Virus record (IMG/VR): IMGVR_UViG_3300042731_008138
Span: 1 to 62,463 of that record
Source: a virus
DNA: 62,463 bases
Reading direction: 5' to 3' (one strand)
Position numbers and translations under genes: made by a program. Below are positions 33,471-55,939 of this stretch, piece by piece (the first letter of the stretch is position 1; each line of letters starts with the position of its first letter). The notes under the pieces are model-generated. The model ran no database searches. It was not told the origin of the DNA and worked only from the letters and a program-made list of their open reading frames with translations.

Positions 33471-33474
33471 CAAA

Positions 33475-36745: not shown

Positions 36746-37794
36746 AGAGCTCCTCCACATAACGGGCAGGTGTCCGGCATCTGATTATATAATTCTTCAA
36801 TCAGGCTGCCCAATTCTTTTCTGTCAATTTTCAACTGGGCGTAATTGGCTCTGGATTCCAATAGAGCAGCCCTGAGATTTTTGTAGTCTTTCTTCATAGT
36901 GAGAAGCCGGTCCAGATTGGTCACGTCTTTCTCAGCCTTTTTCAGGTCTTTGTACTGTTCATAGTCTTCTGTCAAACCCTCCCAGAACCCAAGACCCGTG
37001 GCCAGATCCTGCCGATCATTCTTCACATGAGACCGTGTTTCCATGAGATCATAAATCACCTGTATCAAATTTTGTGCTTTATCCAGTTGATCATAGTGCT
37101 CCAACTCCTCAGAGATGCCCTGATACACATTTACTGTGTGGAGCATTTCATCCCGGAGCTCCTCCGCGGCTTCCCTTCTCTCTTCCATGGCAAGAATACG
37201 CTCCAGGATCCTAGAGGCTTTTTCCACCCAATCATAGGAGGCCAGCTGCTCTTCTGTCTCTTTGATATCAGACTCTCTGATTTTCAATTGAGCGTTGATG
37301 GTTCTCTTCCTGGATTCTACATTGGACAGAGTCTTGTCTATGATATCCAGTTTCAGAACCTTGTTGAGATAACGGGCAACTTCCCCCGGGGAATCAGAAA
37401 GCAAAAAAGGACCATCCATCTGACGATGAACCGCCGATTCAGAGAAATTGAGGGTTTCAGGAACTTCTATAGGCACATCCATACCAATGGCTGTCAGATC
37501 CCTGTCCCCAATCTTGTATCCGTTTTCATCTTTGGTTTTGAAACGGGTGACTTTTCCACGATCAACTTCCAAGGTCACTGAAGATTCTGTTTCCACATTC
37601 CCTTTGGCATCACGGGCCCAATGTGAGATTAACACATTTCCCGCCGGACGGTTTGTTATCACCCAATACAGTCCCCGGAGGATGGCAGTTTTGCCTTGAT
37701 CCGATTCACCCCTGATTGCATTTATTCCAGGATGAAGATCTAATGAGGTATTCTCATGGGATTGAAGGTTATTTAGTTGAATTGATTTGATCAT
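36742..37794 (-). CDS. SbcC/Rad50-like ATPase, N-terminal half with zinc hook
   Basis: 350 residues. Walker A at 29-36 (GESDQGKT), Q-loop region after it, then a long ascending coiled coil and, at the very C-terminus, the zinc-hook motif CPLCGG. The descending coil and C-lobe are on separate genes. ATG 37794 overlaps the stop of the small ORF in the upstream leader (TGATG) and follows GGGAG. Confidence 0.82.
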   Translation of the reverse strand: MIKSIQLNNLQSHENTSLDLHPGINAIRGESDQGKTAILRGLYWVITNRPAGNVLISHWARDAKGNVETESSVTLEVDRGKVTRFKTKDENGYKIGDRDLTAIGMDVPIEVPETLNFSESAVHRQMDGPFLLSDSPGEVARYLNKVLKLDIIDKTLSNVESRKRTINAQLKIRESDIKETEEQLASYDWVEKASRILERILAMEERREAAEELRDEMLHTVNVYQGISEELEHYDQLDKAQNLIQVIYDLMETRSHVKNDRQDLATGLGFWEGLTEDYEQYKDLKKAEKDVTNLDRLLTMKKDYKNLRAALLESRANYAQLKIDRKELGSLIEELYNQMPDTCPLCGGAL

Positions 37795-38049
37795 CACATC
37801 TCCCTTTTCTCTAACACCGGTTTATATTCCCAGTTATCTGGAAAATCCCTAATTTTTAAATCCTTATATAGTATAGAGTTATGAGTTCCGGAAATTTTGC
37901 TTAACTTCGCAATCTTCAATTTTTCATAACTCCTTACTATATATAAAATTAGAAGGTCGCTAGAATCAATTATTTGAAATCGCTTAGGCTATCTTACAGT
38001 ATAGTTTATTCTAGGCACTTAAAACAACCTTCATTGGATAATTCCTTAT
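37791..38049 (-). repeat. 259-bp duplicated leader/promoter, copy A
   Basis: Matches 55681-55939 in the same orientation. The only differences are 15 substitutions within 37878-37910 (33 bp). It contains a likely minus-strand promoter: TTGTTT (complement of 38022-38027), 18-bp spacer, TATACT (complement of 37998-38003), with TTTTAAGTG between them, which is a half-site of the TACTTAA operator. The rest of the gap to 38138 shows nothing clear. Confidence 0.85.
37794..37919 (-). CDS. Small ORF in duplicated leader, copy A (41 residues)
   Basis: TTG 37919, ten bases after AAGGAG, to TGA 37794-37796, which overlaps the ATG of the Rad50 N-half (TGATG). The product KIAKLSKISGTHNSILYKDL continues to IRDFPDNWEYKPVLEKREM. 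The frame is open 23 codons further upstream but lacks ATG/GTG/TTG. A second copy is at 55684-55809 with the first part changed. May be a small coupled leader protein, possibly DNA-binding; unproven. Confidence 0.45.
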   Translation of the reverse strand: MKIAKLSKISGTHNSILYKDLKIRDFPDNWEYKPVLEKREM

Positions 38050-38137
38050 AGAGAAACAAATTAACAAGACCAAAAAAATCTATGTAAATCTATGTCCTAT
38101 AAGAAATTATACAATTATTCCTCAAAAGTTTTTATTA

Positions 38138-38320
38138 TCACCCAATCTCCGCAACCATGACTACCCGTTCACGCTTTTTCTTAGCGGGTCCCGCAGCTTT
38201 ATTATATGCCTCCAGAAAATTTCTGGCAGACAACTCCTCATAACTGGAGGATTTCTCAGTGGCAGGATCTCCCTGCTTTTTGTAAAAAATCCTGTACAGT
38301 CTCTTTTTCTGTTCACTCAT
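38138..38320 (-). CDS. Small basic protein, 60 residues
   Basis: Sequence LYRIFYKKQGDPATEKSSSY and ARNFLEAYNKAAGPAKKKRER. Looks like a small phage domain related to those after RuvC genes. Overlaps the RuvC-like gene's stop by 4 bp. Confidence 0.65.
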   Translation of the reverse strand: MSEQKKRLYRIFYKKQGDPATEKSSSYEELSARNFLEAYNKAAGPAKKKRERVVMVAEIG

Positions 38321-38823
38321 AGATTATGCCTCCTTGCCCACTCTGCTATGAGAAGGCCGTCCGCGTCTTTCATCTTTCTGATGGTTTCTTTCAATTGCGG
38401 GAATAATCTTATTCCAATATCCAGTGACTTTTTCTTGAGTTCTGGTCCCTTCGTTCCCGCTGGTAGAAGTTCCTTTTGCCACATACGTGAATCTATGATA
38501 TCATAAGAAATCCCGAGGAGTTCGATAACTACCAATTGTGCCTCAAAAAATCGGACAGCATTTAAAGACGTTTTGATGGCATACCCATGATAATTAACGA
38601 ATGGTCGTTCCAAAAATATACGAATCTGATCCTGTGGCTGACGTCCCACAATGTCCCGAAGCTCAAGCATCCATTCCTCCGCATCAAGACGAGTGACTTC
38701 CTGTTTTTTTTTCGTGTAGTCCTGCACACGCTTTACTGGATATGATCGATACTCAGCCCATCCATCAGAATAGATGACCCCATAATTTCCGGTTGAGCCA
38801 TTATCCCCGCCAAAATATATCAT
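38317..38823 (-). CDS. RuvC-like Holliday junction endonuclease
   Basis: 168 residues. IYFGGDNGSTGNYGVI holds the first Asp, FLERPF the Glu and KDADGLLIAEWARR the final Asp pair of the RuvC/RNase H fold. Should resolve recombination junctions before packaging. Overlaps the upstream HNH gene by 23 bp. Confidence 0.78.
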   Translation of the reverse strand: MIYFGGDNGSTGNYGVIYSDGWAEYRSYPVKRVQDYTKKKQEVTRLDAEEWMLELRDIVGRQPQDQIRIFLERPFVNYHGYAIKTSLNAVRFFEAQLVVIELLGISYDIIDSRMWQKELLPAGTKGPELKKKSLDIGIRLFPQLKETIRKMKDADGLLIAEWARRHNL

Positions 38824-39406
38824 TTTTGTCCTTCCTGCCCTTCATAAGATTCTCTTCTGAAAATAAAGGTTGAAGATTTTCCAAAGCAAAACACTCCTTA
38901 AAATCAGAATCTTTATATGAAGTAAAATTAAAAAATTGAATAGCTTTGATGTGATCTATTTGCCACACATCCCCATAATTATCCCAAGACATCCCATCAC
39001 GCCATTGAGATTCTATATGATTCCTAAACTGTTCTGGGGTATATCCATATCTGAACTGCCAATCAATAGTTGTTTGTACCCCTTTCCGCAACCAATATGT
39101 CATATTCTTCAAAGACATTTTAGATAACATTCGTTGCCGTTCAGGCATTGCAATTGATTTACTCCAATATTTGAAACACTTCACCGAACAAAACTTACCG
39201 GATTGGCTTGTTATACGATCCCGACGAACCCCAAACTTTTTGCCACACCATTCACAAATAAATTGAACATCACCGCCCTGCCAATTGGAATTGTTTGACC
39301 CAACTTTCCATATATTATAACATTTTCTGGAACAAAACGTATGATTTGAACGCTTGTCATACCGAACAAATTTCTTTCCACAATTTTCACAAGTCATTAC
39401 AGTCAT
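38801..39406 (-). CDS. HNH endonuclease with two zinc ribbons
   Basis: 201 residues. Two treble-clef-type Cys sets (CENCGKKF...CSRKCYN and CEWCGKKF...CSVKCFK) are followed by the HNH core WQIDHIKAI, ALENLQPLFSEENLMKG. Typical of free-standing homing endonucleases. Inserted between an unknown gene and the RuvC-like gene. ATG 39397 is an alternative start. Confidence 0.8.
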   Translation of the reverse strand: MTVMTCENCGKKFVRYDKRSNHTFCSRKCYNIWKVGSNNSNWQGGDVQFICEWCGKKFGVRRDRITSQSGKFCSVKCFKYWSKSIAMPERQRMLSKMSLKNMTYWLRKGVQTTIDWQFRYGYTPEQFRNHIESQWRDGMSWDNYGDVWQIDHIKAIQFFNFTSYKDSDFKECFALENLQPLFSEENLMKGRKDKNDIFWRG

Positions 39407-39407
39407 A

Positions 39408-39695
39408 TCATTTCATTTCCCCTTTGTACGGAAGATCATCCATATTCATTTTCATCATTTCCTCAGTCACTGCCGCCAGTCCCAAAATGGAGAAATAATC
39501 AAGTACTGCTGTGCCCATCATATTCTCCATTTTTCTTAAGGCTTTTGCTTCTCCGTTCTTGTTTTTCTCTAAGATAAAAACAGCCCAGCTTTTGATCAGC
39601 TTGTTGCTATTGATTCCCAGTTCTTTCATGAGGGGAGTATTCAGCTGTACTTTCTTTTCCTCTTGGTTGCAATCTTTTCCTCTATGGTTTCCCAT
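39408..39695 (-). CDS. Hypothetical protein, 95 residues
   Basis: Helical protein. With ATG 39695 it overlaps the recombinase gene by 55 bp; the ATG at 39629 would reduce this but has no RBS. Motif LGINSNKLIKSWAVFILEK. Unknown function. Confidence 0.6.
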   Translation of the reverse strand: MGNHRGKDCNQEEKKVQLNTPLMKELGINSNKLIKSWAVFILEKNKNGEAKALRKMENMMGTAVLDYFSILGLAAVTEEMMKMNMDDLPYKGEMK

Positions 39696-40843
39696 TTTTC
39701 AATCACCCTCCTCTCCAGTTCCTTTTCCAATTTGGGATCTTCCTCAATTCGGGCAATCAATTCATCCCGGGACTCTGGACTACCGAAATGGGATTGATAT
39801 GCTTTTTTCTTTTCGGGATCCCCTTCCACCCATCGTTTGACAGCATCCAGGGATAGCTGATTGGTACCATCAACTTTCTTTCTCCATTCACGGACCTTTT
39901 CCAGCCAGTGGTGTTCTTCCAACCATGCTTTTACAGTAGACAGCTTCTCAGTCTCTTTACCATCCCAGACAATGTTGTTGGCTGCTGCTTTGAGGTTGAA
40001 ATCATCTCCCCGCAGGTCAAACAGAAAATCGAGATTACTCCCGATGTTATCAACGCCGTAGTCAAAATAGATCGAGAACAGACATTCCCGGTAAGGGCGC
40101 GGGGTCTTACTCTTTTCGGTCTTCGCTTTAATAACCCAGCCAATGACTCTGCCTTCCTTTGTCAGTTTCCGTACGGGGTACAGCCAGAGGACCGTGTGGC
40201 AATAATGATCCAGAGCCTTGCCCCCGGCTCTGATGAACTTGGGGGAACACATCCCTCCATCCATGTTCTCCCGGACTTGGGAAATGAAGAATAAAGACAC
40301 ATCAGTATCAGAGAGCAATCTTGCCTTGGTCCTGAAAAACTCCTGAGACAAAAATTTGGCTGTCTTGGTACCATAGGTGCCTTCTTTGAAATCACGACCG
40401 GCTTCTGCTGCTCTTTTACGCTTCTCTGATCGTTCTTCCAATTCTTTGTTGCTTAACCCGTCCAGGCTGTCCAGCATGTATATCCCAACCTCATTATCGA
40501 ATCCTGAGGCAAATCTGTTGATATTGACATCCAGGTCCTCAATCTTTTCAGATCTGAGTGTTTTATCCTTCATCATTTCAAAGCCATACAGGATCTTTGA
40601 GTTGAAGGTGTATCCTTCTTCAGCATCGTCATAGTTCCAGGTAAGTCCCTCTCCATAATCACTATAAGAACGGGCAACAATTTCACTAGCCAGAAAGGAT
40701 TTACCAGCAGACTTGTCCCCCACAATGTTGTGGATCTTCCCGGCCCGGAATCCCAAAAAGTCTTTTTCCCCACCCACAGTCAGATCTAGCACGGTACATC
40801 CTGTACGCAACTGCTTAGACTTTTTTTCTTTGGTTTTAGCCAT
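39641..40843 (-). CDS. RecA/UvsX-like recombinase
   Basis: 400 residues. Walker A GDKSAGKSFLA at ~39-49, GLTWNYDDAEEGY, Walker B IYMLDSLDGL and SLFFISQVREN are RecA-fold motifs. The C-terminus is a charged extension (KKKAYQSHFGSPES, LEKELERRVIEKWE). Strand exchange protein of the phage recombination system. ATG 40843 overlaps the upstream stop; ATG 40876 is an alternative with a similar RBS. Confidence 0.82.
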   Translation of the reverse strand: MAKTKEKKSKQLRTGCTVLDLTVGGEKDFLGFRAGKIHNIVGDKSAGKSFLASEIVARSYSDYGEGLTWNYDDAEEGYTFNSKILYGFEMMKDKTLRSEKIEDLDVNINRFASGFDNEVGIYMLDSLDGLSNKELEERSEKRKRAAEAGRDFKEGTYGTKTAKFLSQEFFRTKARLLSDTDVSLFFISQVRENMDGGMCSPKFIRAGGKALDHYCHTVLWLYPVRKLTKEGRVIGWVIKAKTEKSKTPRPYRECLFSIYFDYGVDNIGSNLDFLFDLRGDDFNLKAAANNIVWDGKETEKLSTVKAWLEEHHWLEKVREWRKKVDGTNQLSLDAVKRWVEGDPEKKKAYQSHFGSPESRDELIARIEEDPKLEKELERRVIEKWETIEEKIATKRKRKYS

Positions 40844-41210
40844 CAATGCATTCCTTATAGAGTCGTTCAAATTCATGCTCATCTTCCTTCCTGATTGACA
40901 GGGGATACGGATTTGACTTTGTTTTCAGGGAGCTCATCCGCACCATAGTAATGGCCCTTTCATACCGAAATTCTTTTTTCGTGCACAATTCACTGACTGA
41001 GGCCCAATGGAGTTTCCAATCAATCCAATCCAGCAGTAAGGATTTATTCACCATCAGATGATAACCATCCTCAGCTTTTTTGAGCATATTGGAATTGAAT
41101 TTCTTGTCCTTCTTTTTCAGGAGTTTATGAAAAGCCTGCCGCGTGGTGGTGAATTGTAAAGAAGTCTGAGTCAGATCCCAAGCCTCTTTGAAGGTGATCC
41201 ATTCCTCCAT
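40836..41210 (-). CDS. Hypothetical protein, 124 residues
   Basis: ATG 41210 overlaps the upstream stop (TGATG) and has AGGAG at eight bases. N-terminal ITFKEAWDLTQTSLQFTTTRQAF resembles a helix-turn-helix; the rest is helical. Between ssDNA-binding protein and recombinase genes, so likely a recombination or replication helper. Confidence 0.6.
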   Translation of the reverse strand: MEEWITFKEAWDLTQTSLQFTTTRQAFHKLLKKKDKKFNSNMLKKAEDGYHLMVNKSLLLDWIDWKLHWASVSELCTKKEFRYERAITMVRMSSLKTKSNPYPLSIRKEDEHEFERLYKECIDG

Positions 41211-42352
41211 CACATATTCTCCTGAGAGAGTTCAGCGCATTCATCCCAAATTTCTTCCGGACATTTAGAGCAATCGCTTTTGTAGTTGTCAGCATCCTTG
41301 CCGAATTCATGCCCATAAGGACATTTGTCTTTGGACTTTTTCTTTTTGGGAACAGGCTCTTCTTCCTCCTCATCATCGTTATCCTCTTCAGGCTCAGGCC
41401 GGGATCTCTTTTTTTTGGATGACCTGCGGGGAGGTTCTTCATCCTCTTCATCCTCTTCATCCTCTTCATCCTCTTCATCCTCTTCATCATCATCGTTATC
41501 CTCTTCTTCTTCTTCTTCCTCCGGGTCCTGTCTTTTTTTCTTGATAGATCGACGCGGGGTTTTTTCCTCTTCCTCATCGTCTTCTTCTTCTTCTCCGCCC
41601 TCAAATAGGATTTTTTCAATTTCAGAGGCAGAAAGAAGGACAAGAATTTCATCAAAGGAAATAGCTTCATTCACCCATTCATCCAACAATTCTTCCTTCC
41701 GCTCAGGGAAAGTGAAGTTGTCAAACTCCAGGTATTTAACTTTTTTCCCATTGATAGTTTTTTCCACCTCATCGGCATAAAATCTTACCACGGTACCATC
41801 GTCAATGTCTGCAAAATGGACAATATCTTCTCCATCCTCACAGGCATGAGCCATCTTGACCAGATTCTTTTCAAACAGGTAAGCAGAAGATTCCATGACC
41901 ATTAACTTGCCTTTGTGTTCTCCCCGGACAGGAACCACATTGTAAAACACTCGGGCAGAAGTTTGAAGCTGCTTGGCTTCTTTTTCCTTACCCTGTTTGT
42001 ACAGTTCAGAAATTTCTTCACAGATGGGGCAGTGTTTGCCATAATTCTTTTTGGGGCACAGGATATCATCATATTTAGGCCCAATACCTTTGTGAATGGA
42101 GACTTCCAGTACATAAGCCAATTCTCCTATCTCACAGTTGCCTCTGTGGACAGAGGGATGGAGCTTGCTTTTCAGTTCAAATGGAATGATATTGATCCGG
42201 TTCCATTCCAAAGTGGGGGTAAAAAACTCAGGTTCCTGATCCAGTTTACTGAAATCCACAGCCTTCCTTCCCCGGAATCCCGATTTGGCAGTGTTTTCTT
42301 TCTGGTCTTTGTAGGCTCCGTTACTGACTTTCCTTCTTATTTTCTTGGCCAT
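41210..42352 (-). CDS. gp32-like ssDNA-binding protein with acidic tail
   Basis: 380 residues. The core (residues ~30-240) has the gp32-type zinc site LHPSVHRGNC...KHCPICEEI and OB strands (YNVVPVRGEHKGKLMVMESS). Residues ~255-340 are extremely acidic with basic islands. Unusual: the C-terminus adds a second Cys/His set (CPYGHEF, CSKC, WDEC). Coats single-stranded DNA at forks and in recombination. Confidence 0.8.
   Translation of the reverse strand: MAKKIRRKVSNGAYKDQKENTAKSGFRGRKAVDFSKLDQEPEFFTPTLEWNRINIIPFELKSKLHPSVHRGNCEIGELAYVLEVSIHKGIGPKYDDILCPKKNYGKHCPICEEISELYKQGKEKEAKQLQTSARVFYNVVPVRGEHKGKLMVMESSAYLFEKNLVKMAHACEDGEDIVHFADIDDGTVVRFYADEVEKTINGKKVKYLEFDNFTFPERKEELLDEWVNEAISFDEILVLLSASEIEKILFEGGEEEEDDEEEEKTPRRSIKKKRQDPEEEEEEEDNDDDEEDEEDEEDEEDEEDEEPPRRSSKKKRSRPEPEEDNDDEEEEEPVPKKKKSKDKCPYGHEFGKDADNYKSDCSKCPEEIWDECAELSQENM
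41438..41482 (-). repeat. 9-bp tandem repeat coding Glu-Asp-Glu
   Basis: Five exact TTCATCCTC units (plus strand) with a degenerate sixth code for the repeated D-E-E of the acidic tail. Likely to vary in length by slippage. Confidence 0.9.
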
Positions 42353-42353
42353 G

Positions 42354-42857: not shown

Positions 42858-42864
42858 TCAAGGT

Positions 42865-42900
42865 CCTCCTATCTTATTATAGGCAAAATCTGCCTACTTT
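42865..42900 (-). promoter_or_regulatory. CCTATAATAA-type phage promoter, site 1
   Basis: Minus strand reads AAAGTAGGCAGATTTTGCC then TATAATAAGATAGGAGG. TATAAT is the complement of 42876-42881. GGCA/TGCC form a small inverted repeat just upstream. No -35 consensus. The same element is at 51870-51894, related ones at 59675-59699 and 62156-62190. Confidence 0.7.
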
Positions 42901-43820
42901 TATCTTTTCAATTCAGTATATGACTGGTATGAAACCAGTGTGGCATTGGCCCCTGTTGCTCCCCAATAGGGCTCTGCAAAGTTTTCCAAAATCACCGCCC
43001 AGGAAGGATCCTTGTTGCCGTTGAGCAGTACTGCGTTACAATAACCAATCACTGCTCTTCTGATACTCTCCTGATCCATCTCCTCTCCCAAAGATTTTAA
43101 ACAGATGGCAACTGATTTCCAAGGGCCTTTTTTTATGGCATTGATCAGGTCCCCAATCTTTTTTTCTGTTTCTTCCCCTGCTTGGAGGGCTTTTAACATT
43201 TCCTCCGGCTCCAACTCAGAAACCTTTTCCAGATTTACCAAGGCCTGACGGGGACTGCCTTCGCTGATTTCCACAATCTCTTCAACAATCTCCGAGGGAA
43301 TGCGCAACTTTTCCTTCAGGCATACTTTCCTGATAAGCCGGGTCATGTCTTCCGATTTGAGAGCATTGACTGTAATAGTGGTGCACCGGGTTTTGATTGT
43401 TTTCAGAAGCATTTCAGGATCCGTGGTACACAGAAAAAAGTATACATTGGAAGGGGTATCCTCCAGGGGCTTCAACATAGCATTCTGCCAGTCCTTGGTA
43501 GTCTTATGTACCTCATCAATAATGTATACCTTAGGGGCATTGGTGGGGGAGCGGTAAGCCATTCTGGTAATCACTTCCCTGGCGGTATCAATTCCCCTGT
43601 TGTCCGCAGTGTTAATCTCCTGGATGCTCAAATCATCCCCTCCCAGTTCACGGGCAGCAATTCGTGCCAGCGTGGTTTTGCCACAACCGGACGGTCCTTG
43701 TATCAGGAAAGATTGGGGGCGGGAGGAAGAAGCCAGTTTGGACTGAAGGGCTTCCACTTCAGCTTTATTTCCGATAATTTCATCAAAGGTTTGAGGTCTA
43801 TATTTTCTATATAAACTCAT
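42900..43820 (-). CDS. Clamp loader ATPase (DnaX/RFC-like)
   Basis: 306 residues. YRKYRPQTFDEIIGN, Walker A GPSGCGKTTLA, IIDEVHK (Walker B), CTTDPEMLLKTIKTRC (sensor 1 and Arg-finger SRC-like) and SEGSPRQALVNLEK (sensor 2). Loads the sliding clamp encoded at 46655-47701. Single-gene loader as in T4 gp44-like sets, without a recognisable gp62. Confidence 0.88.
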   Translation of the reverse strand: MSLYRKYRPQTFDEIIGNKAEVEALQSKLASSSRPQSFLIQGPSGCGKTTLARIAARELGGDDLSIQEINTADNRGIDTAREVITRMAYRSPTNAPKVYIIDEVHKTTKDWQNAMLKPLEDTPSNVYFFLCTTDPEMLLKTIKTRCTTITVNALKSEDMTRLIRKVCLKEKLRIPSEIVEEIVEISEGSPRQALVNLEKVSELEPEEMLKALQAGEETEKKIGDLINAIKKGPWKSVAICLKSLGEEMDQESIRRAVIGYCNAVLLNGNKDPSWAVILENFAEPYWGATGANATLVSYQSYTELKR

Positions 43821-43975
43821 AGTGCCCCCAATTTGTAAATAGTTTTGACTAACAGCCCTCCGGCAGCTACTACCCCAGCCAATGCCAGAAATATTCCAGC
43901 AATCAACAGACTCCCTGTTATGATCTTAACCGCTAATTTCATAGCAGGGGTCATCTCCTCTTTCTTTTTTTCCAC
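43817..43975 (-). CDS. Membrane peptide of 52 residues
   Basis: GTG 43975 follows AGGAGG; stop overlaps the clamp-loader ATG. Residues ~20-46 (GSLLIAGIFLALAGVVAAGGLL) are one membrane span after a charged start EKKKEE. A membrane protein inside the replisome operon is unusual. Confidence 0.65.
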   Translation of the reverse strand: MEKKKEEMTPAMKLAVKIITGSLLIAGIFLALAGVVAAGGLLVKTIYKLGAL

Positions 43976-44009
43976 ATTTTCCTCCTATAGATATATGCCA
44001 AACTTGCTT

Positions 44010-46655
44010 TCATGCGGCTTTCTTCAGATAGCCACAATCTTCCATTTCATGCCAACTACCATTTACAGCAGAACGTTCTTTCTCAAGGATGAGAGGGGCA
44101 ATGACCCAATCCCACTGTTCTTCAATATTTTTGGATCCCAACCGATGTACCATCTCATCCAATGCTTTTTCTTCCCCAGGGACCACGTCAAATAACATAG
44201 AGTCATGAACCTCAGCGATGGGCTTGCTCTTCATGTTCCGCTCCCGGAGCTCTTTTTCAATACAGTGCAGGGCCCACAGCTTCACGTGAGAGGCCGGACC
44301 CTGAACAGGATAGTTTACCACCTGAGTAAAATCCATCGGCCCGTAGCACCGGAAACCAGTCACCTGATCAATAAAGCCTTTTCGCTCATATTGGTCATAC
44401 AATCTTAATCTTTTCTTACCATATACAGGAAACCGCCTGCCCCAATATTCCTGATCAAATTCAATCATCCTGGCTTCAAATTCTTTGAAGGTTCGGATCC
44501 CCTTGGGCCAGCTTCTGTTGCGTACTTTTTTGAGATGCTCCTTCACTTCTTCAGGAAGTTGCAACCACATCCCAACAGCTGCTTTCCTTCCTGAAGATCC
44601 GTAAATGGAGGGAAACACATATCCATTTTTGGCAGCTTGTCTGGCTGCCTTGGAAATCTTCTTGGGGAGGGCGTCCCACTCCTCTTTGGTGTAGTACAGG
44701 ATTTCCATTGCGGTGTCCCGGTGCATGTCCTTGGACAGGTCCCGGCAGTATTCCAACCAAGCCGGATCCTGGAACACACATCCAGCAATTGTTACTTCCA
44801 GGGCCTTGTAGTCATATTCCACCAGCCTGTTCCCGGGGGAAGGCTTCAGAATGGATCTGGTGATGTACTGTCCTTCAGCACTGCGTTTGGGCACGTTCTG
44901 AAAATTGGGGGAATCGGAGGAGCTCCGGAAGGTGTCCACATTATTCAGTTTGAAAAAGGGGTGTACTATGTAGTCCACTTCCTCTTTATAAAATCCGTTC
45001 AAATAAGTGTCCCTGAGTTTTTTGTTCTTTCTGTATTTAATGAGATGGTCACAGAAGTTTGAATTGAAGCTTTCCAATGTAACCTCATCCACCTTCTTTA
45101 TCTCCTCCCCATCAACCCCTTTTCTCCCTTTGTACCCCAAGATATTGTACAGCAGTTCGGACAAATTGGGCTCACTGTTGGGATTGAATTCACTCTTTCT
45201 TTTCCACTTGGATACTTCCTCAGAATCCATTATCAGGGTTTTGTATCGCTTCATCCTCCGGGTGAGAGTCTGCCGATGTTTCTCAGCCAATTCTGTATCC
45301 AGCCGGATCCCGTTGGTGTGAAGGCGGGCAAGAGTCTGGGTGCCGTCAATGAGTAGTCTCAACCCCTTTTCTCTGTGACCCTTCAACACGCTCTTCTGAT
45401 ACTCATATTCTTTGTAAGTGAACAAGGCATCCTGCGCACAATATTTGAGCAGCTTGGCTGTGGGGGCTTTGTGGATAGAATTGAAGGCATTCTTTCCAAA
45501 CTTTTTCTTGTCATGTTGATTGCTGCTGAGAAAGTCATCCAATTCCACATCATAACCCATTATCCCAAAATGGACATAGGAAAGAAACTTCAACCCGGTC
45601 GGCTTTTTGTTATTGAGACAATGAGCTCCCAACAAGGTATCCCATACCCAATTTTCCACCCTGTATTTTTCTTCCCCGGGGGGCGCTGCTCTTTCAAAAG
45701 TCCAGTTGTCTTCAAAATCCAGTTTGTGGGCTATCTTACCCACCTTGGGATTGGTCAGGAAGGCTTGCCAAACGGACCGAAACCGGACCGAATCAAAGAA
45801 CGGGAACGCATACCCCATCTGGCCATCACTAATACCAGCACATACAATCCGGTGACCCTCTCTATGGGGTTTCACTCCAGTGGTTTCATAATCGAATACC
45901 ACGGGCCGGTTGCCTTTCTGGATTTGCTCAATCCACTCAATGGCTTGGCCTTCCTCCTGTGTGAACTCCACATCTTTGTCATAGTGATGTTCGTAGAAAA
46001 AGCCCTCACCGCATTTCACAGCCCTTTTGATATGCCGTTTCCAAATCCTCTTTAATCCCTGATTTATTTCCTGGCCGTCATTCCCGCGGGTTTTGCGGAG
46101 AATGTAGGCAGGATGATAGGTGGGGCAGATGTAACAGCCCAGCTCCTGATCTGGGATTCTATATCCAAAGAAGGCACTGGTTTCAATTCCAGTGATTCTT
46201 CCTGCCTCCATCCTGTGTCCAATCAATCCTTTCAAAGCGGTGGTGCCGAAAGTGATAATCACTTCCGGCTTGTATTCTGCTATGGTTCTGAGTAATTTAT
46301 GACGGCAGGAAGCTATTTCAGCAGCTGTGGGGGTCCTGTTTTTGGGAGGTCGGCAAACTACAGCATTGGTTCTGAGACAATCCCCATTGAAACTTATTCC
46401 TATTTCATCCAAGACATCTTTGATGAGTCGGCCAGAAGGGCCCACAAAAGGGATCCCCTTGTCATCCTCTTTTTTTCCAGGAGCCTCTCCCACCAGCAAT
46501 ATTTTCTTGTGTCCTCTTCCATAAGGCTTCATGTTGGGATGAATACATGATCGGTCCAGAGAACAGGCATCACACCCTATTTTCTTTTTGGAGCTCCGGG
46601 CCTTGCTGACTGAGGGGTTCTCTCCGGTCCCAAGGTCAAAATATCCAACCCCCAT
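44010..46655 (-). CDS. Family A DNA polymerase with N-terminal uracil-DNA glycosylase domain
   Basis: 881 residues. Residues ~25-215 are a family 4-type UDG: CDACSLDRSC, LVGEAPGKKEDDKGIPFVGPSG (two parts), HPAYILR. Residues ~245-430 are a 3'-5' exonuclease (VFDYETTG, AHKLDFEDNW, YCAQDALFTYKEY). The polymerase has motif A DYKALEV (usual DYSQIEL), motif B RQAAKNGYVFPSIYG and motif C VHDSML. UDG-polymerase fusions are known in SPO1-type phages. Start codon overlaps the clamp stop. Confidence 0.88.
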   Translation of the reverse strand: MGVGYFDLGTGENPSVSKARSSKKKIGCDACSLDRSCIHPNMKPYGRGHKKILLVGEAPGKKEDDKGIPFVGPSGRLIKDVLDEIGISFNGDCLRTNAVVCRPPKNRTPTAAEIASCRHKLLRTIAEYKPEVIITFGTTALKGLIGHRMEAGRITGIETSAFFGYRIPDQELGCYICPTYHPAYILRKTRGNDGQEINQGLKRIWKRHIKRAVKCGEGFFYEHHYDKDVEFTQEEGQAIEWIEQIQKGNRPVVFDYETTGVKPHREGHRIVCAGISDGQMGYAFPFFDSVRFRSVWQAFLTNPKVGKIAHKLDFEDNWTFERAAPPGEEKYRVENWVWDTLLGAHCLNNKKPTGLKFLSYVHFGIMGYDVELDDFLSSNQHDKKKFGKNAFNSIHKAPTAKLLKYCAQDALFTYKEYEYQKSVLKGHREKGLRLLIDGTQTLARLHTNGIRLDTELAEKHRQTLTRRMKRYKTLIMDSEEVSKWKRKSEFNPNSEPNLSELLYNILGYKGRKGVDGEEIKKVDEVTLESFNSNFCDHLIKYRKNKKLRDTYLNGFYKEEVDYIVHPFFKLNNVDTFRSSSDSPNFQNVPKRSAEGQYITRSILKPSPGNRLVEYDYKALEVTIAGCVFQDPAWLEYCRDLSKDMHRDTAMEILYYTKEEWDALPKKISKAARQAAKNGYVFPSIYGSSGRKAAVGMWLQLPEEVKEHLKKVRNRSWPKGIRTFKEFEARMIEFDQEYWGRRFPVYGKKRLRLYDQYERKGFIDQVTGFRCYGPMDFTQVVNYPVQGPASHVKLWALHCIEKELRERNMKSKPIAEVHDSMLFDVVPGEEKALDEMVHRLGSKNIEEQWDWVIAPLILEKERSAVNGSWHEMEDCGYLKKAA

Positions 46656-47701: not shown

Positions 47702-47751
47702 AATGTACTCCTTATTTCCAAAATAGCAAGCGGGTTCAACCGCTTTCATTC

Positions 47752-49398: not shown

Positions 49399-50567
49399 AA
49401 TTGTTCTTCAAAGAATGATAAAACCGAATCATAATCATTTCTGATAATACTCATTCCCTCAAAATCTTTGAAGATGTCTTCTGGAGATTTTGCTGCTTTA
49501 ATTTTATTTCCAATAGCCTTGGCTATAGATTTTCCATCTTTAGAATTATCAACAGCAATTCCAATATATCGCTGAACATCAATCAAAGATCCATCAGGCT
49601 GCTTTTCTTCAAAAATATAAATAAGTGAATCTTTAACTTTCTTAATTATCGGGAAAGACATCTTTGTAGGAAATGCCTTCTCAAGCCAAGAAACAAATCT
49701 GTCTTTATTTTTTTCTACATGCTGAATATATTCCTGAATCAGTTCATCAGGATCTTTTTCATGCCCAAACCAATCAACAAGTCCGGAGATCCAGATATTT
49801 GATTTCATTTTGCCATGTCCTATCCTGGCTGACCCTCCAATAATTCCATCAGATTTCTGCCAACGCTGAATGCAAAACAAAGTTGCCCCTATCTCAAGTG
49901 GAGATACATTATATAGGATAAGATCATGATAAAATAAAGTCCCAGGAACTATTGATTCCCCAGCATAAATCATCAGATTACTTTCTTCCTTTTTTTGAAG
50001 GTCCTTTATCATGGATACAGAATCCTTCATTCTTCCGGCATCCCCTCTTGTATATTGATATTTGCTTATGAAATGCTGCGCTGGAAGAAGGGACTGAACA
50101 GGAATTTCATAATCTTCAGGTATCAATTTTGGAAGAAGTTTCTGATTTTCCAGACAAATAAGAATTCCGCGGGAAACAAATAAAGATCCCCCCACAACCT
50201 GATTTTTCAAACTCCCGCCAAGAAGTCTGAATAATGGAGAGACCTCCTGCAATTCCGCAATCAAAGGAATATTATCAGTAGTACTGGATTCAGAAAGACT
50301 GCCGCCTGTAAACATATAATTAGCCTGATCAATAGATAATTTTCCTCTTAACTCACAGACATCAACAAGATGAAGGGCTCCTGGCTCCCTAATGATTTTA
50401 TGCCGGAGAGCATTTCCAGACAAGACTGGAATATCAACAACATTTCCTTCATGAAGAACTTTTTCTCTATTCAGAATAGATTCATTACCGGAGACGCCCA
50501 TCATATGAGTAATAGGAGAAACAGCCTCAGAAAGAAAATGGATTTTGCAAGTTCCTATTTGTTTCAT
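49395..50567 (-). CDS. csf2: Type IV CRISPR Cas7-like backbone Csf2
   Basis: 390 residues from ATG 50567 (AAAGGGGG six bases upstream; ATGA overlap with the cas11 stop). Diagnostic block: ISPLTH-like VSPITHMMGVSGNESILNRE, VVDIPVLSGNALRHKIIREPG, then SIDQANYMFTGG and FRLLGGSL. GGSARIGHGKMKS is the Gly-rich loop. Csf2 forms the filament on guide RNA. Confidence 0.88.
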   Translation of the reverse strand: MKQIGTCKIHFLSEAVSPITHMMGVSGNESILNREKVLHEGNVVDIPVLSGNALRHKIIREPGALHLVDVCELRGKLSIDQANYMFTGGSLSESSTTDNIPLIAELQEVSPLFRLLGGSLKNQVVGGSLFVSRGILICLENQKLLPKLIPEDYEIPVQSLLPAQHFISKYQYTRGDAGRMKDSVSMIKDLQKKEESNLMIYAGESIVPGTLFYHDLILYNVSPLEIGATLFCIQRWQKSDGIIGGSARIGHGKMKSNIWISGLVDWFGHEKDPDELIQEYIQHVEKNKDRFVSWLEKAFPTKMSFPIIKKVKDSLIYIFEEKQPDGSLIDVQRYIGIAVDNSKDGKSIAKAIGNKIKAAKSPEDIFKDFEGMSIIRNDYDSVLSFFEEQL

Positions 50568-50998
50568 TTTGAACCCCCTTTCTTTTTCTGATTCCAAATC
50601 TGCCGGGCATAGACCAAAATAATATTATACTTTTTCTCAATAATATGAAGAAAAAGATCCTGCCATTCCCTCGGCTTTGTATTCATAGATTCAAGAAAAG
50701 CAAGAAGACTTTCCTTTGAGGCCACGGCCCCAGGATCTGCTTTGATGAATTCCAGAACAAGATTTATGAATTCTTCATAATCCCCTCCACACTTCTTGAC
50801 AGCGGAAATAAGACCATTCCCTATCCGTTCCCATAAGGTCTTCCGGTCAAAATCATCAGAGAACAATTCCGGTAAGATTGAACACATCTTTATGGCCTCG
50901 TCTCTTACCACCCTTTCTTCCATCTCCGGAAGTTTTCTCGAGGGGTCTATCAATCCCACTAACTTCTGTCTGAATTCTTGTGCTGACAATTGATTCAT
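50564..50998 (-). CDS. cas11: Candidate small subunit (Cas11) of the type IV-B complex
   Basis: 144 residues from ATG 50998 (AGGAAGAG upstream); the frame extends to 51106. All helical (FRQKLVGLIDPSRKL, VVRDEAIKMCSIL, EFINLVLEFIKADPG), size and position between csf1 and csf2 fit the IV-B small subunit. Sequence family not otherwise recognised. It overlaps the csf1 end by 143 bp, which is unusually long. Confidence 0.65.
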   Translation of the reverse strand: MNQLSAQEFRQKLVGLIDPSRKLPEMEERVVRDEAIKMCSILPELFSDDFDRKTLWERIGNGLISAVKKCGGDYEEFINLVLEFIKADPGAVASKESLLAFLESMNTKPREWQDLFLHIIEKKYNIILVYARQIWNQKKKGGSK

Positions 50999-51692
50999 TT
51001 CTACACTCTTCCTTTCCGGGGCATATCCATGCCGCCAGTTCTCCCAATGGGGAGGAAAATATATTACACCACTCTTCAAGTGGAGATTCACTACCATAAA
51101 ATTCAACTGTGTTTTTCCAGTTGATAAATTGATCAGGATTTGTCAGGGACTTTTTCCCAATAGCCGCAGAGGCAATGAGGGCACAATCCAGAATGCGTCG
51201 AAGTTGGACCCTATCAACAATGATTTCTTTTTCTTCAAGCAAAACTGAATACATATCCCGATCATAATTAACCGGTGCCCTGAAAATAAGATGTTTCTGT
51301 CCACTGTCTGCAAGAATAATAGAGAATGGAGGTTTCGGGGGATCAAAAAGAATTGTCCGACAAAAATCAAGATGCCGTTTTGTAAAAGCTTTTTTCCAAT
51401 CGAGAGTGAGAATCCATGAATAACAACGTGGTGCTCCCCCACGTCCTTCTTTCACGGTTCCGTCAATCTGTTCTGTTTTTCCAAGTCCAGCAAAAGAAGA
51501 AATACAGCATCCACAAACAAAATTACTTCCCGGATTCTTCACAATATCCCGATTTGTAAAAGTCTCTTTTACATAATCTTGTTTCAAATAATGATTTCCG
51601 CATGGCAATCCACAGTAATAACATTTATTCTGACCATGATAATAATTTGATGAATCAAAAAGATAAGAAGCAGTTATCATTTTCTTTTTCAT
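50856..51692 (-). CDS. csf1: Type IV CRISPR large-subunit-like protein Csf1
   Basis: 278 residues. Zinc-finger Cys at 24, 27 (CYYCG) and 60, 62, 63 (CGCC) with FTNRDIVKNPGSNFVC between them are the Csf1 hallmark. Further LTLDWKKAFTKRHLDF and RAPVNYDRDMYSVLLEEKEI. Reduced Cas8-like protein. The basic C-terminal ~50 residues (SGDGRKGGKRRGHK) come from the region overlapping cas11. Confidence 0.8.
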   Translation of the reverse strand: MKKKMITASYLFDSSNYYHGQNKCYYCGLPCGNHYLKQDYVKETFTNRDIVKNPGSNFVCGCCISSFAGLGKTEQIDGTVKEGRGGAPRCYSWILTLDWKKAFTKRHLDFCRTILFDPPKPPFSIILADSGQKHLIFRAPVNYDRDMYSVLLEEKEIIVDRVQLRRILDCALIASAAIGKKSLTNPDQFINWKNTVEFYGSESPLEEWCNIFSSPLGELAAWICPGKEECRNESIVSTRIQTEVSGIDRPLEKTSGDGRKGGKRRGHKDVFNLTGIVL

Positions 51693-51853
51693 CTATTGCC
51701 TACCCATTCATCACTTCCGCACAAAGGACAGCAGCCTTCCTTCTGATCTTCTGGGCTGTACCACACATAGCAATGTCCACACTGTACAGGAACATTGAAT
51801 ATTTCAAATGCCTCTTCCATATCATTGGTCCAGTCTTTCTTTTCCTCTGCCAT
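51689..51853 (-). CDS. Zinc-ribbon protein leading the cas operon, 54 residues
   Basis: ATG 51853 follows AGGAGG of the promoter leader. Sequence MAEEKKDWTNDMEEAFEIFN, then QCGHCYVWY and GCCPLCGSDEW, a rubredoxin-like ribbon with CxxC and CxxC. Stop overlaps the csf1 start (ATGA). First gene of the transcript, so either part of the Cas module or a phage gene into which the cassette was fused. Confidence 0.75.
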   Translation of the reverse strand: MAEEKKDWTNDMEEAFEIFNVPVQCGHCYVWYSPEDQKEGCCPLCGSDEWVGNR

Positions 51854-51860
51854 AAGATCC

Positions 51861-51894
51861 TCCTATTTTATTATAGGCAAAATCTGCTTACTTT
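51861..51894 (-). promoter_or_regulatory. CCTATAATAA-type phage promoter, site 2 (cas operon)
   Basis: Minus strand AAAGTAAGCAGATTTTGCC then TATAATAAAATAGGAGG; TATAAT is the complement of 51870-51875. Same as site 1 with two or three changes. It places the cas genes and, with no terminator visible, the clamp and polymerase under phage control. Confidence 0.7.
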
Positions 51895-51907
51895 TTGTAT
51901 CTTTCAT

Positions 51908-52693
51908 TCAATCAATCTCCTTTATTCTGATCTTTTCTCCGATAAGATTTCCGTCTGGGCCAATCTTGTTCAGTCGGCCAACAGTCTCATCAGTCAGAAA
52001 GAAATGCGTGTTCCCATTCTTGCAGAACTTCACCTTGAAATATGAACAGTCTGCCTCATTCGCATGGTTGATTTTTGCAAGAGTTTTCAGTGTCTTATCT
52101 GGAACAGACTTACCATCTAGGATATAACAAACCTTTTCTAGATCATCGGTTATCGTCGGCCCACCGGACCAATAGTTATACATCATGAGATAATCATATG
52201 TCTGAAGGATAAAAAACTTGTCTACACCGTTGTTGTTCCGCTTCTTTTCCCTTGAAGCAAACCCTGAACCGGTTTCATAAGATCCGGTTATCAGTTTTTC
52301 ATAGACACGCTTGCACATCAGCCGGATATTTTCATAAATCATAGACTTCAAACTGGTAAGCCATGCTTCCGCGTTTTCCGGCGTGAAGTCCGGTGTTTTC
52401 AGCTCCTCAATCTCTTTCATCATCTTGGCATACTCGGAGCAAAGCATGTACTTTTCCAAAAAGTAGAGTTTGACAAGATAGCGCCAGAGATACTGGTCAA
52501 TGTATTTTTCTGTTCTGGCCTGATGATAGTTGTGGAACTCCCAGCGGATGTTGTAGGGCCTATATCCGTTGACATCTTTAAGGTTATCAGATATTTGCTG
52601 ATCAAGATCAACAAACTCTTCCATCTGCCGCAAGAATTTCAACTTAATCCGGAAGAGGTCTTCTGCTGTAAGTCGCCTTGTAATTTCATTCAT
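51908..52693 (-). CDS. DUF4942-like protein
   Basis: 261 residues from ATG 52693 (GGAGG eight bases upstream). The C-terminal part (YILDGKSVPDKTLKTLAKI, YFKVKFCKNGNTHFFLTDETV) is the DUF4942 pattern, a family found near methyltransferase or plasmid/phage DNA genes, function unknown. N-terminal region is helical. Confidence 0.7.
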   Translation of the reverse strand: MNEITRRLTAEDLFRIKLKFLRQMEEFVDLDQQISDNLKDVNGYRPYNIRWEFHNYHQARTEKYIDQYLWRYLVKLYFLEKYMLCSEYAKMMKEIEELKTPDFTPENAEAWLTSLKSMIYENIRLMCKRVYEKLITGSYETGSGFASREKKRNNNGVDKFFILQTYDYLMMYNYWSGGPTITDDLEKVCYILDGKSVPDKTLKTLAKINHANEADCSYFKVKFCKNGNTHFFLTDETVGRLNKIGPDGNLIGEKIRIKEID

Positions 52694-52733
52694 AAACAAA
52701 TCCTCCTTCTTTTTGATGAACCATGCTTATCAA

Positions 52734-54116
52734 TTATATAACCTCACTACGTTTCCTACTGTCCAGATATTCCCGCCCAATATCCCTGCAGTGAAGGACG
52801 GCAACCTGGTCCAGGAACACCTGACCCTCTCTTTCCAAAACCTTATTCCATCTGATGATTCCTCTTTCCCGCTCCTCCGGTTCCTGATTAAGGGCTATCA
52901 TTTTGGTGACGTGACCTCCCTTTCTGTAATCTTCAGCCACGTGGGTCAGGTTCACATCTCCTTTATTCCCTGCCCGGTTTACCTGTGAAGCGGTAATGAC
53001 GGCACAATTCAATTCCTGAGCCAGTCCTCTCAATTTCTGCCATAGATCGTTCAGCTGATTTCTGAGCTCCCCTTTGATGTCAAACCTCATGATGTCAGCA
53101 TAGTCTATAACAATCATGTCCGGAACGATCCCCTCATAATACATACAATTATCTATGATGTTTCTAATATCTGTCAAAGAGGTACTGGAAGCTGGCAATG
53201 CAAAGATTCGAACTCCGCCGGTAACTTGTTGTCTATATTTTTTTTGAATATTGGCTATATTTCCCATTTCGGTGTCCACGCCATCCCGGGTTTCCGTCCT
53301 CATTTTCACTTCCCACTTTCCTTCCTCAGCAACCTCTGAAAAATAAGGGATTGACACCTGGGAGGTAGTCAAAGGTTTGCCCCGGAAGGCTTGCCATGCC
53401 CGGCGGAGTATTCTATTTTGAGTCATCTCCAGGGAGAAAAAGAAAGAATGATATCCCATCAGGGCAGCATGATGAGAAGTGTAAAACAGGCTGTATGATT
53501 TTCCCATTTTTGGACGGGCCAGGAATGATACAAAGTCTCCTCTGACAATTGGGCCCACATGGGATCCCAGGACCCCAGGATATGTGAATAATATTTCATC
53601 TTTATCTCCAAAGGCCTGAACAATGGGGGCAGTATCCCTAAGAATATCAACCCCGGAACCTTTGTTGGATCCAATCCGTTTGAAAGATGATATGAGATGC
53701 TCCCCGTTTTCCACGTCCCGGGAATCAATGGCTGTTTGAAGTTGTTCTTTAATCTGTACCAGTTTTCTGATCCGGAAATATTCTGAAGCAGAGCTTACTG
53801 CATACTGAACATTGTGGAGCTCCACAGAATCATCACTCAACTTTTTGAGAAACTCAGCGATGAGCTCTGTATCATCTTCATTGGGCACCTGATTTTTCTT
53901 TCTGGTGTACAGATCCTCAATGTTTTTCCCGGGGGCCTCCTCTATCTGATCAAAATATTCCCACACCCAAGAGGCCAACAGCCGGACATAAGGAGACTCA
54001 AACAACACAGGATCTGCTGTCCCCTTCATCTGTCTCAGAAACTCTGTTGAGGTGATTAAATATGACATGATCTTTCTTTCTTCGGACAAGTCAATCCGGT
54101 TTCTAGTATAGCTCAC
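52734..54116 (-). CDS. DnaB-like replicative helicase
   Basis: 460 residues. Walker A ARPKMGKSYSLFY at ~195-207, FFSLEMTQNRILRRAWQAF, Walker B MIVIDYADIMRF, and CAVITASQVNRAG, VAEDYRKGGHVTKMIAL are DnaB C-domain motifs. N-terminal ~120 residues helical. GTG 54116 overlaps the upstream stop; ATG 54068 possible. Unwinds DNA for the primase encoded at 679. Confidence 0.85.
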   Translation of the reverse strand: MSYTRNRIDLSEERKIMSYLITSTEFLRQMKGTADPVLFESPYVRLLASWVWEYFDQIEEAPGKNIEDLYTRKKNQVPNEDDTELIAEFLKKLSDDSVELHNVQYAVSSASEYFRIRKLVQIKEQLQTAIDSRDVENGEHLISSFKRIGSNKGSGVDILRDTAPIVQAFGDKDEILFTYPGVLGSHVGPIVRGDFVSFLARPKMGKSYSLFYTSHHAALMGYHSFFFSLEMTQNRILRRAWQAFRGKPLTTSQVSIPYFSEVAEEGKWEVKMRTETRDGVDTEMGNIANIQKKYRQQVTGGVRIFALPASSTSLTDIRNIIDNCMYYEGIVPDMIVIDYADIMRFDIKGELRNQLNDLWQKLRGLAQELNCAVITASQVNRAGNKGDVNLTHVAEDYRKGGHVTKMIALNQEPEERERGIIRWNKVLEREGQVFLDQVAVLHCRDIGREYLDSRKRSEVI

Positions 54117-55684
54117 GCAGCCTCTCTATAATATTTCAATAGTTCTTTCACGCCTTCAATCCGATCCACCATATCCTCTCCAAATAGATCATTGAGAATC
54201 CCTGCTTTCTGATGGAGCAGGTTAATATAATCTTCATCGATCGTTCCCACTCCAGTTAGATAATACACATTCACTGAATCTCTTTGTCCATCACGATGCA
54301 ATCTATCTTCTGCCTGAACCATGTCAATCGGAGTGAAAGCAAATTCGATGAAAGCGCAAGTGCTGCAAACTTCCTGAATCCCATCTGTGCCTGTTCCCAA
54401 TGATTGTATATTCCCAAATAAGATTTTGCTTTCCGGGTCTTCTATGAATCTCTGTTTAATCTCATCTTTCTTTTCAGCAGACACTGAGCCATCAATAAAC
54501 AAGGCTTCTTTACCAAATTGTTCTTCTAGGTAGCGCCTCACCGCCCGATGATAATAATACACAACCAGTTTCTCACCTTCAGCTACGAACTCCCGAATCC
54601 AATTTACTGCCGCTTCTTTTTTCAAATCAAATGCCGTCCGGGAAAGGGACCTTAATGCCTCATCAGTTTCCTTCCTGGTTGCCAGAATATCACTGAGGTA
54701 ATTCTGTTTCTCCATTTCATAGGCTTCAGAATCAGTCAGATCAATAGGAATCATGTCCCGTATTTTCGGAGGCAAATCCGGCAGGACTTCATTCTTTGTC
54801 CGACGGATATATAGATCCCTGATTTTTGCCTGCAATTCCTCTCCATGAGTCAATCCATTATATGTCCATCCAAATCCATTATGACGGGGATCACAGTACC
54901 GTTGTCGGTACGCATAGAAATTGGGGAATCGGGCGGGACTGGTCAAATGCAGCGACGGAAAAAATTGTAAAGGCCGGGATCGGATAGGGGTTCCGGAAAG
55001 ACCTATCCAATCCGCTCTGGTTTTGTTGACCAAGGAAATTGCTGCCTTTGTTCTCTTTGCTTTCCAATTTCCCATCATCTGAACCTCATCCCCGATGACT
55101 ACAGCTGGGTTTATATCTCTCAAAACACGCTCCCAATAAGTCAGGATTTCCCAGTTAACGATGATGAGGGGGATTTCCTCCGGAATAGAATAGGGGGTCC
55201 GGCCGCTGAGAATTATAGATTCTTCCCCGGGCAGCCATTCTTCCGCTTTTCGGACCCATTGTTTTTTCAAGGAACTTTTGACTACAATGACTGCAGGTCT
55301 TTTTTCCGGATTGATACGAAGGTACGCTAAGGATTCTATGGTCTTTCCCACTCCCTGATCATCCAATATTAATCCACGGCCCCTTCTATAAGTCAGGAAC
55401 TTTTGAGCCTCTACCTGATATGGTCGGAGTCCCGGAACCTCTGATACCTGAATATTTTCCCATAGGGCTGAATCTTTTTCTGTCGTGGAAGCTATAATGG
55501 GAAGTTGAAATCCTAAATTAGTGAGGGCCTGTGAGTGAACTTCTGTGATGGGGGTTTCCCAAATTTTCCGATCTGGCAGGTATACCCGATTTGGAAGGGC
55601 CTTAATCCCGTTCAGTGTCTCCCTGAAATCAGGCCCCGAGAATTTCACCTGATATTTGTTGTCCACAATCGTACAGGATTTCAT
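54113..55684 (-). CDS. SNF2-family helicase
   Basis: 523 residues. Motif I DDQGVGKTIESLA, motif II GDEVQMM (DEAH-equivalent), motif III GLSGTPI, C-terminal FGNIQSLGTGTDG and AEDRLHRDGQRDSV. The N-terminal ~85 residues resemble a HARP-like substrate domain (WETPITEVH). Similar to phage SMARCAL1-like helicases that remodel forks or annealed DNA. ATG 55684 overlaps the leader ORF (TGATG). Confidence 0.85.
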   Translation of the reverse strand: MKSCTIVDNKYQVKFSGPDFRETLNGIKALPNRVYLPDRKIWETPITEVHSQALTNLGFQLPIIASTTEKDSALWENIQVSEVPGLRPYQVEAQKFLTYRRGRGLILDDQGVGKTIESLAYLRINPEKRPAVIVVKSSLKKQWVRKAEEWLPGEESIILSGRTPYSIPEEIPLIIVNWEILTYWERVLRDINPAVVIGDEVQMMGNWKAKRTKAAISLVNKTRADWIGLSGTPIRSRPLQFFPSLHLTSPARFPNFYAYRQRYCDPRHNGFGWTYNGLTHGEELQAKIRDLYIRRTKNEVLPDLPPKIRDMIPIDLTDSEAYEMEKQNYLSDILATRKETDEALRSLSRTAFDLKKEAAVNWIREFVAEGEKLVVYYYHRAVRRYLEEQFGKEALFIDGSVSAEKKDEIKQRFIEDPESKILFGNIQSLGTGTDGIQEVCSTCAFIEFAFTPIDMVQAEDRLHRDGQRDSVNVYYLTGVGTIDEDYINLLHQKAGILNDLFGEDMVDRIEGVKELLKYYREAA

Positions 55685-55939
55685 CACATCTCCCTTTTCT
55701 CTAACACCGGTTTATATTCCCAGTTATCTGGAAAATCCCTAATTTTTAAATCCTTATATAGTATAGAATTATAAGATTCTGAAAATTGTCTCAATAATAA
55801 AATCTTCAATTTTTCATAACTCCTTACTATATATAAAATTAGAAGGTCGCTAGAATCAATTATTTGAAATCGCTTAGGCTATCTTACAGTATAGTTTATT
55901 CTAGGCACTTAAAACAACCTTCATTGGATAATTCCTTAT
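55681..55939 (-). repeat. 259-bp duplicated leader/promoter, copy B
   Basis: Direct repeat of 37791-38049, differing only in 55768-55800. Same promoter candidate (TTGTTT-18-TATACT). Precedes the SNF2-DnaB operon as copy A precedes the Rad50-Mre11 operon, so both operons should be co-regulated. Confidence 0.85.
55684..55809 (-). CDS. Small ORF in duplicated leader, copy B (41 residues)
   Basis: Same frame as 37794-37919: TTG 55809 to TGA overlapping the next ATG. Product KILLLRQFSESYNSILYKDL then the same IRDFPDNWEYKPVLEKREM. Compared with copy A, 11 codons of the first part contain 8 amino-acid changes and 3 silent ones, with no indel. Confidence 0.45.
   Translation of the reverse strand: MKILLLRQFSESYNSILYKDLKIRDFPDNWEYKPVLEKREM

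Follow-up and report, generated by a model that had tools for sequence, protein, structure and literature searches.

A candidate structured mRNA leader carried in two mosaic copies before recombination and repair genes of a phage

The window analyzed here is the entire 62,463-base sequence of virus record IMGVR_UViG_3300042731_008138 (a metagenome-derived relative is an IMG/VR contig), and the element under study is a leader-like sequence that occurs in it twice, as copies A and B. The record carries a 69-base direct terminal repeat, of the kind expected if the phage contig is circular or complete. The plus strand of the left half encodes portal, terminase, major head and sheath proteins; genes for DNA polymerase, a DnaB-like helicase, a RecA-like protein, an SNF2 helicase and SbcC/SbcD-like proteins lie on the minus strand of the right half, and the phage encodes a sigma factor. 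The leader copies lie between co-directional minus-strand genes, in gaps of 340 and 349 bases, copy A preceding the gene of an SbcC-like ATPase and copy B that of an SNF2-family helicase (Table 1). Both copies terminate at the ATG of the gene, past which the two loci are unrelated in sequence. An end placed precisely at the start codon of two genes is the form expected of a 5' leader. Its sense strand is the minus strand, a correction to the original prediction that drew attention to the duplication.

As predicted, the copies share a 259-nt core differing by 15 substitutions, all within 33 nt; outside this patch, 226 of 226 sites are identical. The mismatches fall (copy A numbering) at 37878, 37883, 37886, 37888, 37890, 37895, 37898, 37899, 37902 and 37905-37910. 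Such clustering exceeds chance, as had been claimed: the probability that 15 random sites out of 259 lie within 33 nt is approximately 1.3e-13 when calculated analytically, and none of 200,000 simulations produced it. The 259-bp unit stands as the exact core and falls as the limit of homology, since the alignment runs about 60 nt farther upstream at approximately 60% identity (38 of 62 alignment columns). The upstream alignment score at 60 bases was matched by 0.05% of 2000 shuffles (p 0.0005) and by 0.06% of 1703 AT-rich windows of the genome (p 0.0006). In transcript order, the mosaic comprises a diverged stretch (the 5' arm and tip of a hairpin designated HP1), 139 identical nt, the diverged 33 nt and 87 identical nt; the leader thus holds two diverged patches rather than one. 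Within the 33-nt patch, again in transcript order, the first 12 nt match at the chance level (4 of 12, p 0.35) and the last 21 nt above it (14 of 21, p 0.0003). Because these last 21 nt are more alike than chance, the patches of the two copies are judged homologous, with divergence growing from the stem towards the tip.

Blocks of perfect identity might also originate in assembly, either because one path of the assembly graph was used twice, masking small differences, or because the patches came from different strains. The source is a virus record with a near-identical relative among IMG/VR metagenome contigs, the identical blocks measure 139 and 87 nt, within the size range of short-read repeats, and a perfect 108-bp inverted pair elsewhere in the genome could share the same cause. 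However, the flanks, HP1 and the patch are unique to either copy, which indicates at least two distinct loci, and collapse could presumably mask a few differences without generating a 33-nt patch. We regard an assembly or strain artefact as quite improbable.

Folding of the whole 259-nt minus strand gave z scores of -3.7 (A) and -2.9 (B). The predicted structures are two hairpins, HP1 and HP2, and a three-way domain that includes a third, HP3 (Table 1). HP2 folds on the minus strand only, and a similar strand contrast was seen for HP1 of A (z -6.2 on the minus strand versus -3.0 on the plus strand) and for HP3 of B (-5.1 versus -2.3). On these models, the leader most probably folds as an RNA of the sense strand. 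HP1 and HP3 are also long imperfect palindromes, and the neighbours include the SbcC-like protein, a predicted Holliday-junction resolvase and an HNH endonuclease; these features would suit an element that works as DNA (a replication origin, a recombination site or a cruciform) instead of RNA. Yet wherever the strands differ (HP2, HP1 of A and HP3 of B) the sense strand folds better, and both copies stop at a start codon. A DNA-level role seems to us extremely improbable. The resolvase (38317-38823, minus strand; PHROG 1770, 1e-6) and the HNH endonuclease (38801-39406, minus strand; PHROG 1271, 2e-13) are encoded just upstream of leader A; such neighbours could have contributed to the mosaic through homing-type co-conversion.

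Table 1. Positions of the two leader copies, their predicted structures and the adjoining reading frames. Position 1 is the first base of the window; z values are for the predicted fold.
Feature	Positions	Strand	Basis or remarks
Copy A, identical core with patch	37791..38049	-	pairwise comparison
Copy B, identical core with patch	55681..55939	-	pairwise comparison
Diverged patch of A (tip and 3' arm of HP3)	37878..37910	-	comparison and fold
Diverged patch of B (tip and 3' arm of HP3)	55768..55800	-	comparison and fold
HP1 of A, upstream hairpin with diverged 5' arm and tip and with its 3' arm in the identical block	38036..38111	-	z -6.2; 0 of 300 shuffles as good
HP1 of B, same layout as HP1 of A	55926..56001	-	z -5.0; 0 of 300 shuffles as good
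HP2 of A, identical in both copies	37984..38032	-	z -3.5 (minus) versus +0.2 (plus)
HP2 of B	55874..55922	-	z -3.6 (minus) versus +0.2 (plus)
Three-way domain of A: closing stem P1, HP3 (37865-37943), small hairpin P3 (37827-37844)	37808..37965	-	z -5.5
Three-way domain of B (P1, HP3, P3)	55698..55855	-	z -4.6
Small open reading frame of A: TTG start, 41 codons, stop overlapping the gene's ATG; coding doubtful	37794..37919	-	
Small open reading frame of B; coding doubtful	55684..55809	-	
Gene after leader A: SbcC-like ATPase, likely ATG at 37794	36742..37797	-	Pfam AAA_23; PHROG 77 SbcC-like, 2e-9
Gene after leader B: SNF2-family helicase, likely ATG at 55684	54113..55687	-	Pfam SNF2-rel_dom 3e-23; PHROG 62 DNA helicase

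In transcript numbering the patch spans 140-172, and HP3 pairs 107-126 with 166-185 (19 pairs), above which lies a tip region of 39 nt (127-165). The 5' side of this tip (127-139) is identical in the two copies, the rest of the tip holds 13 substitutions and the 3' arm 2. The latter, both in the outer stem, change G-C to G-U, with pairing retained only in the minus-strand RNA. In the predicted fold, the patch is one half of a hairpin and not a symmetric loop. HP1 is still paired in both copies despite approximately 60% identity: 23 of the 31 pairs in the fold of A and 23 of the 27 in the fold of B are standard in the other copy, more than at every slide of 1-5 columns, and five pairs in either fold are changed on both sides.

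Fifteen changes clustered exactly in one hairpin half could have arisen at one stroke if one patch was rewritten after a recent duplication, for instance by template switching within the hairpin. Template switching is known to give clustered, stem-keeping changes (PMC8794818). No donor was found, however: seven of eight local comparisons gave p values of 0.28-0.98, and the eighth gave 0.013 before correction. Local rewriting, which would leave the diverged HP1 next door unexplained, is in our judgement very unlikely.

The diverged pieces are hairpin tips and arms, all else is identical, and divergence of the patch increases towards the tip. Such an arrangement would suit leaders whose HP3 and HP1 tips are kept different, each for a partner of its own (an RNA, a protein or a distant site), on a shared body that is kept identical. 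Nevertheless, the 5' half of the HP3 tip is the same in both copies, an identity for which a specificity loop would have no need; the best duplexes between tips (HP1/HP3), at -7.7 to -10.9 kcal/mol, are weak and lack copy specificity, and neither a target nor a partner was found. We consider this explanation unlikely. Rather unlikely, too, is the related proposal of a scaffold with two exchangeable tips, HP1 and HP3, through which one control mechanism would read two recombination operons separately, with recombination keeping the scaffold and selection separating the tips.

The original prediction placed the patch in a small open reading frame (ORF) and suggested that it might encode a recognition helix. 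The overlap between stop and ATG (TGATG), the frame and the length of the ORF are indeed retained in both copies. The count of 8 changed codons out of 11 is correct for amino acids (8 of 11 replaced, 3 silent) and not for DNA, where all 11 codons differ; 8 replacements to 3 silent changes would be about what drift gives. Equally long segments of genes had a median codon-usage score of 6.3 and a 5th percentile of -1.3, compared with 0.75 (A) and -4.4 (B) for the small ORF, and in both copies another frame scored higher. The ORF was left open in 60% of trials with 15 random substitutions, and its Shine-Dalgarno (SD) sequence (AAGGAG) is buried in the HP3 stem (mean unpaired probability 0.18 in both copies). 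Neither the ORF nor its 64-residue stop-to-stop extension gave a convincing match by Pfam, PHROGs or tblastn. The coding status of the ORF is unproven, and the recognition helix lacks support in view of the poor codon usage, the buried SD, the ease with which the frame stays open by chance and the drift-like replacement ratio.

The buried SD could instead belong to a timing switch of the T4 I-TevI type. HP3 would hide the strong SD and the TTG of the small ORF in long transcripts, and a promoter, TATATATA, in its 5' arm would give a later transcript lacking that arm, with late translation of the small ORF and the coupled gene. The octamer TATATATA occurs at 37938-37945 and 55828-55835 and nowhere else in the genome; it is one mismatch from TATAAATA, which we take to be the T4 late box. 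The burial of the SD in both copies, the confinement of TATATATA to the two leader sites, the overlap of the ORF's stop with the gene's ATG and the sigma factor gene of the phage would all fit such a switch. On the other hand, the coding signal of the small ORF is weak, the SD of the downstream gene is partly open anyway in the full leader (mean unpaired probability 0.51 in A and 0.17 in B), TATAAATA was not found before the structural genes (five matches altogether), and no late-gene set with this box was seen in the genome. The mechanism is established in T4 (PMC2988022). For the leader described here we deem it improbable.

The reading that we favour, at roughly an even chance, is that the element is a cis-acting structured 5' mRNA leader of two repair/recombination genes, partly homogenised by recent recombination, with a hairpin sequence that is loosely constrained. 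Two paralogous leader RNAs of about 320 nt would be transcribed from the minus strand and reach the start codons of two unrelated recombination/repair genes, acting in cis as a folded mRNA segment in start-site control, 5'-end protection or as a processing site. The shape of the hairpins would be needed more than their sequence. The identical flanks would stem from recent duplication or gene conversion between the copies, and the patch and HP1 would be older sequence that homogenisation left unreplaced; diversifying selection of a special kind would not be required. The mosaic reading is strengthened because a second diverged stretch lies in HP1, and the phage shows recent duplication of control regions elsewhere too, in a 42-bp family and in the perfect 108-bp inverted pair. 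Of the original proposal that flanks were homogenised around a patch diversified by selection, the mosaic part is upheld by the second diverged stretch, and the selection for diversity is not, there being two copies only, without relatives. The idea of a function at the RNA level fared better in part, since in the predicted fold, which is largely strand-specific, the patch makes up the tip and the 3' arm of the largest hairpin.

Several observations weigh against this leader model. With random substitutions at the 15 HP3 sites, the observed number of pairs was retained in 10% or 26% of trials, depending on the null model; because this happened so often, constraint on HP3 is not proven. Change in the tip is one-sided, its 5' side untouched and its 3' side half replaced, which a constraint on shape only does not explain. 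The number of HP1 pairs changed on both sides was equalled or passed when the alignment was slid (7 at +1 for the fold of A, 6 at -1 for the fold of B), and covariation is thin because there are only two copies, without a relative. Finally, HP1 of B and HP3 of A fold about equally on the plus strand. Altogether, the predicted fold of the leader appears well supported and selection on pairing weakly so.

No third copy was detected in the genome by short-word blastn or by shared 13-mers, apart from one 13-mer at 45610, about what chance would give, and a covariance-model search of the window and of 19 of 39 relative loci gave no accepted match. The one new full-length model match, at 9435-9593 (E 0.07-0.3, also in locus L003), was rejected as a terminator-like hairpin and U tract before a 599-residue ORF. 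The sequence at 9470-9540 (plus strand) forms a very strong, terminator-like hairpin followed by a U tract and then, adjacent to the ribosome-binding site, by GGAGG directly before this ORF. Blastn with the leader found nothing in 50,697 phage records or in 10 records picked from 23 portal relatives. Three exact or back-translated leader patterns had no match in viral contigs and one gapped pattern none in genome contigs; searches with the helicase alone and with SbcC alone returned no relatives. Records very near the source record may be absent from the collections searched.

Alignment-based scans yielded five helicase loci, seven SbcC loci and, in genomes, three portal loci. These represent fewer independent cases than loci, as L032 and L040 share contig G002 with L004 and L044-L046 look like one sequence. 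At the seven SbcC loci no leader was found, the gap before the gene being at most 73 nt. Among four of the five helicase loci, the two with a clear start (L032 and L033) have no leader, and the upstream ORF abuts the gene. The best syntenic relative, G002 (portal 44% identical, helicase and SbcC approximately 30%), has small ORFs directly before the helicase and a 73-base gap before SbcC. In that contig, a promoter-like sequence and a 12-bp perfect hairpin lie directly before SbcC (L030:2138-2200), with no leader homologue. L003 and the source are identical across 7,353 bases of the structural region; the 25.7-kb contig of L003 was searched for the leader without success. Rfam 15 contained no match to the leader at gathering score, the two ribozymes described below being the only matches at that level in the window, and relaxed scans of each leader were at chance level (E 1.7 or worse). 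A description of this element was not found in the open-licence literature searched.

Other elements were observed elsewhere in the genome. Two self-cleaving ribozymes, 0.5 kb apart on the minus strand, score above the Rfam gathering score: a Twister-P5 at 33415-33471 (E 2e-6) and a Hammerhead_II at 33978-34042 (E 2e-5). The perfect 108-bp inverted repeat consists of 34266-34373 and 59700-59807, which lie 25 kb from each other; at the end of either copy, next to a gene start, is a promoter-like TATAAT, and the repeat seems to be another duplicated control region. A CCTATAATAAGATAGG-like motif recurs at 42860-42901, 51854-51895, 59659-59700 and 62175 (plus strand), where it is followed by AGGAGG and then directly by genes; it is likely a phage promoter or leader family. 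An 18-base tandem repeat of about 10 GTCCGACGGAGTCAACCG-like units spans positions 98-367, within or close to a small plus-strand ORF. A 102-bp direct repeat, 92% identical, occupies 25583-25684 and 25697-25798 (114 bp from start to start) within a plus-strand gene.

If real, the element would be a previously undescribed structured leader RNA linked to recombination genes of a phage, and its two copies, with an identical body and diverged hairpin halves, would be a clean example of mosaic evolution in nature. The pair would then be suited to testing whether hairpin tips carry specificity. Should the mosaic reflect drift and conversion only, it would be an ordinary, well-marked case of these processes.

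The leader can be set beside several known systems. Early mRNAs of T7-like phages have repeated intergenic processing hairpins (RNase III sites), in which the helix is kept while the sequence varies. They resemble the leader as long hairpins between early genes; unlike it, they are not near-identical 259-nt copies. Template-switch clusters in RNA hairpins show similarly clustered arm changes (PMC8794818), the difference being that no template was found for the leader. In T4, hairpins that bury ribosome-binding sites (I-TevI, segB, mobE, soc and e) time the translation of genes in long transcripts (PMC2988022). The likeness lies in an SD-burying hairpin within a phage operon of T4-like replication/recombination genes, with an AT-rich octamer in the 5' arm; unlike in those hairpins, the SD buried here belongs to a doubtful small ORF and not clearly to the downstream gene, and no T4-type late promoter set was seen in this genome. 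The extended start-associated sequences (ESAS) of cluster K mycobacteriophages are inverted repeats of unknown function near gene starts (PMC3203893). Like the leader, they recur immediately ahead of the start codons of non-structural phage genes that are preceded by large gaps, and their inverted repeats flank a variable spacer. As described there, ESAS have imperfect 17-bp arms, spacers mostly of 4-13 bp, many copies and a shared 13-bp start-associated sequence (SAS), whereas the leader has two copies of about 320 nt, several hairpins, an HP3 with 19 outer pairs and a 39-nt tip, and no SAS. No shared 13-bp start repeat was among the repeat families found in the genome; the leader has the start-codon position of ESAS and lacks the architecture of 17-bp repeat, short spacer and SAS. 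In conclusion, the leader resembles T4 hairpins and mycobacteriophage ESAS in position, and membership of neither group is established. It is probably a modest addition to the known means of gene control in phages and not a system of a new kind.

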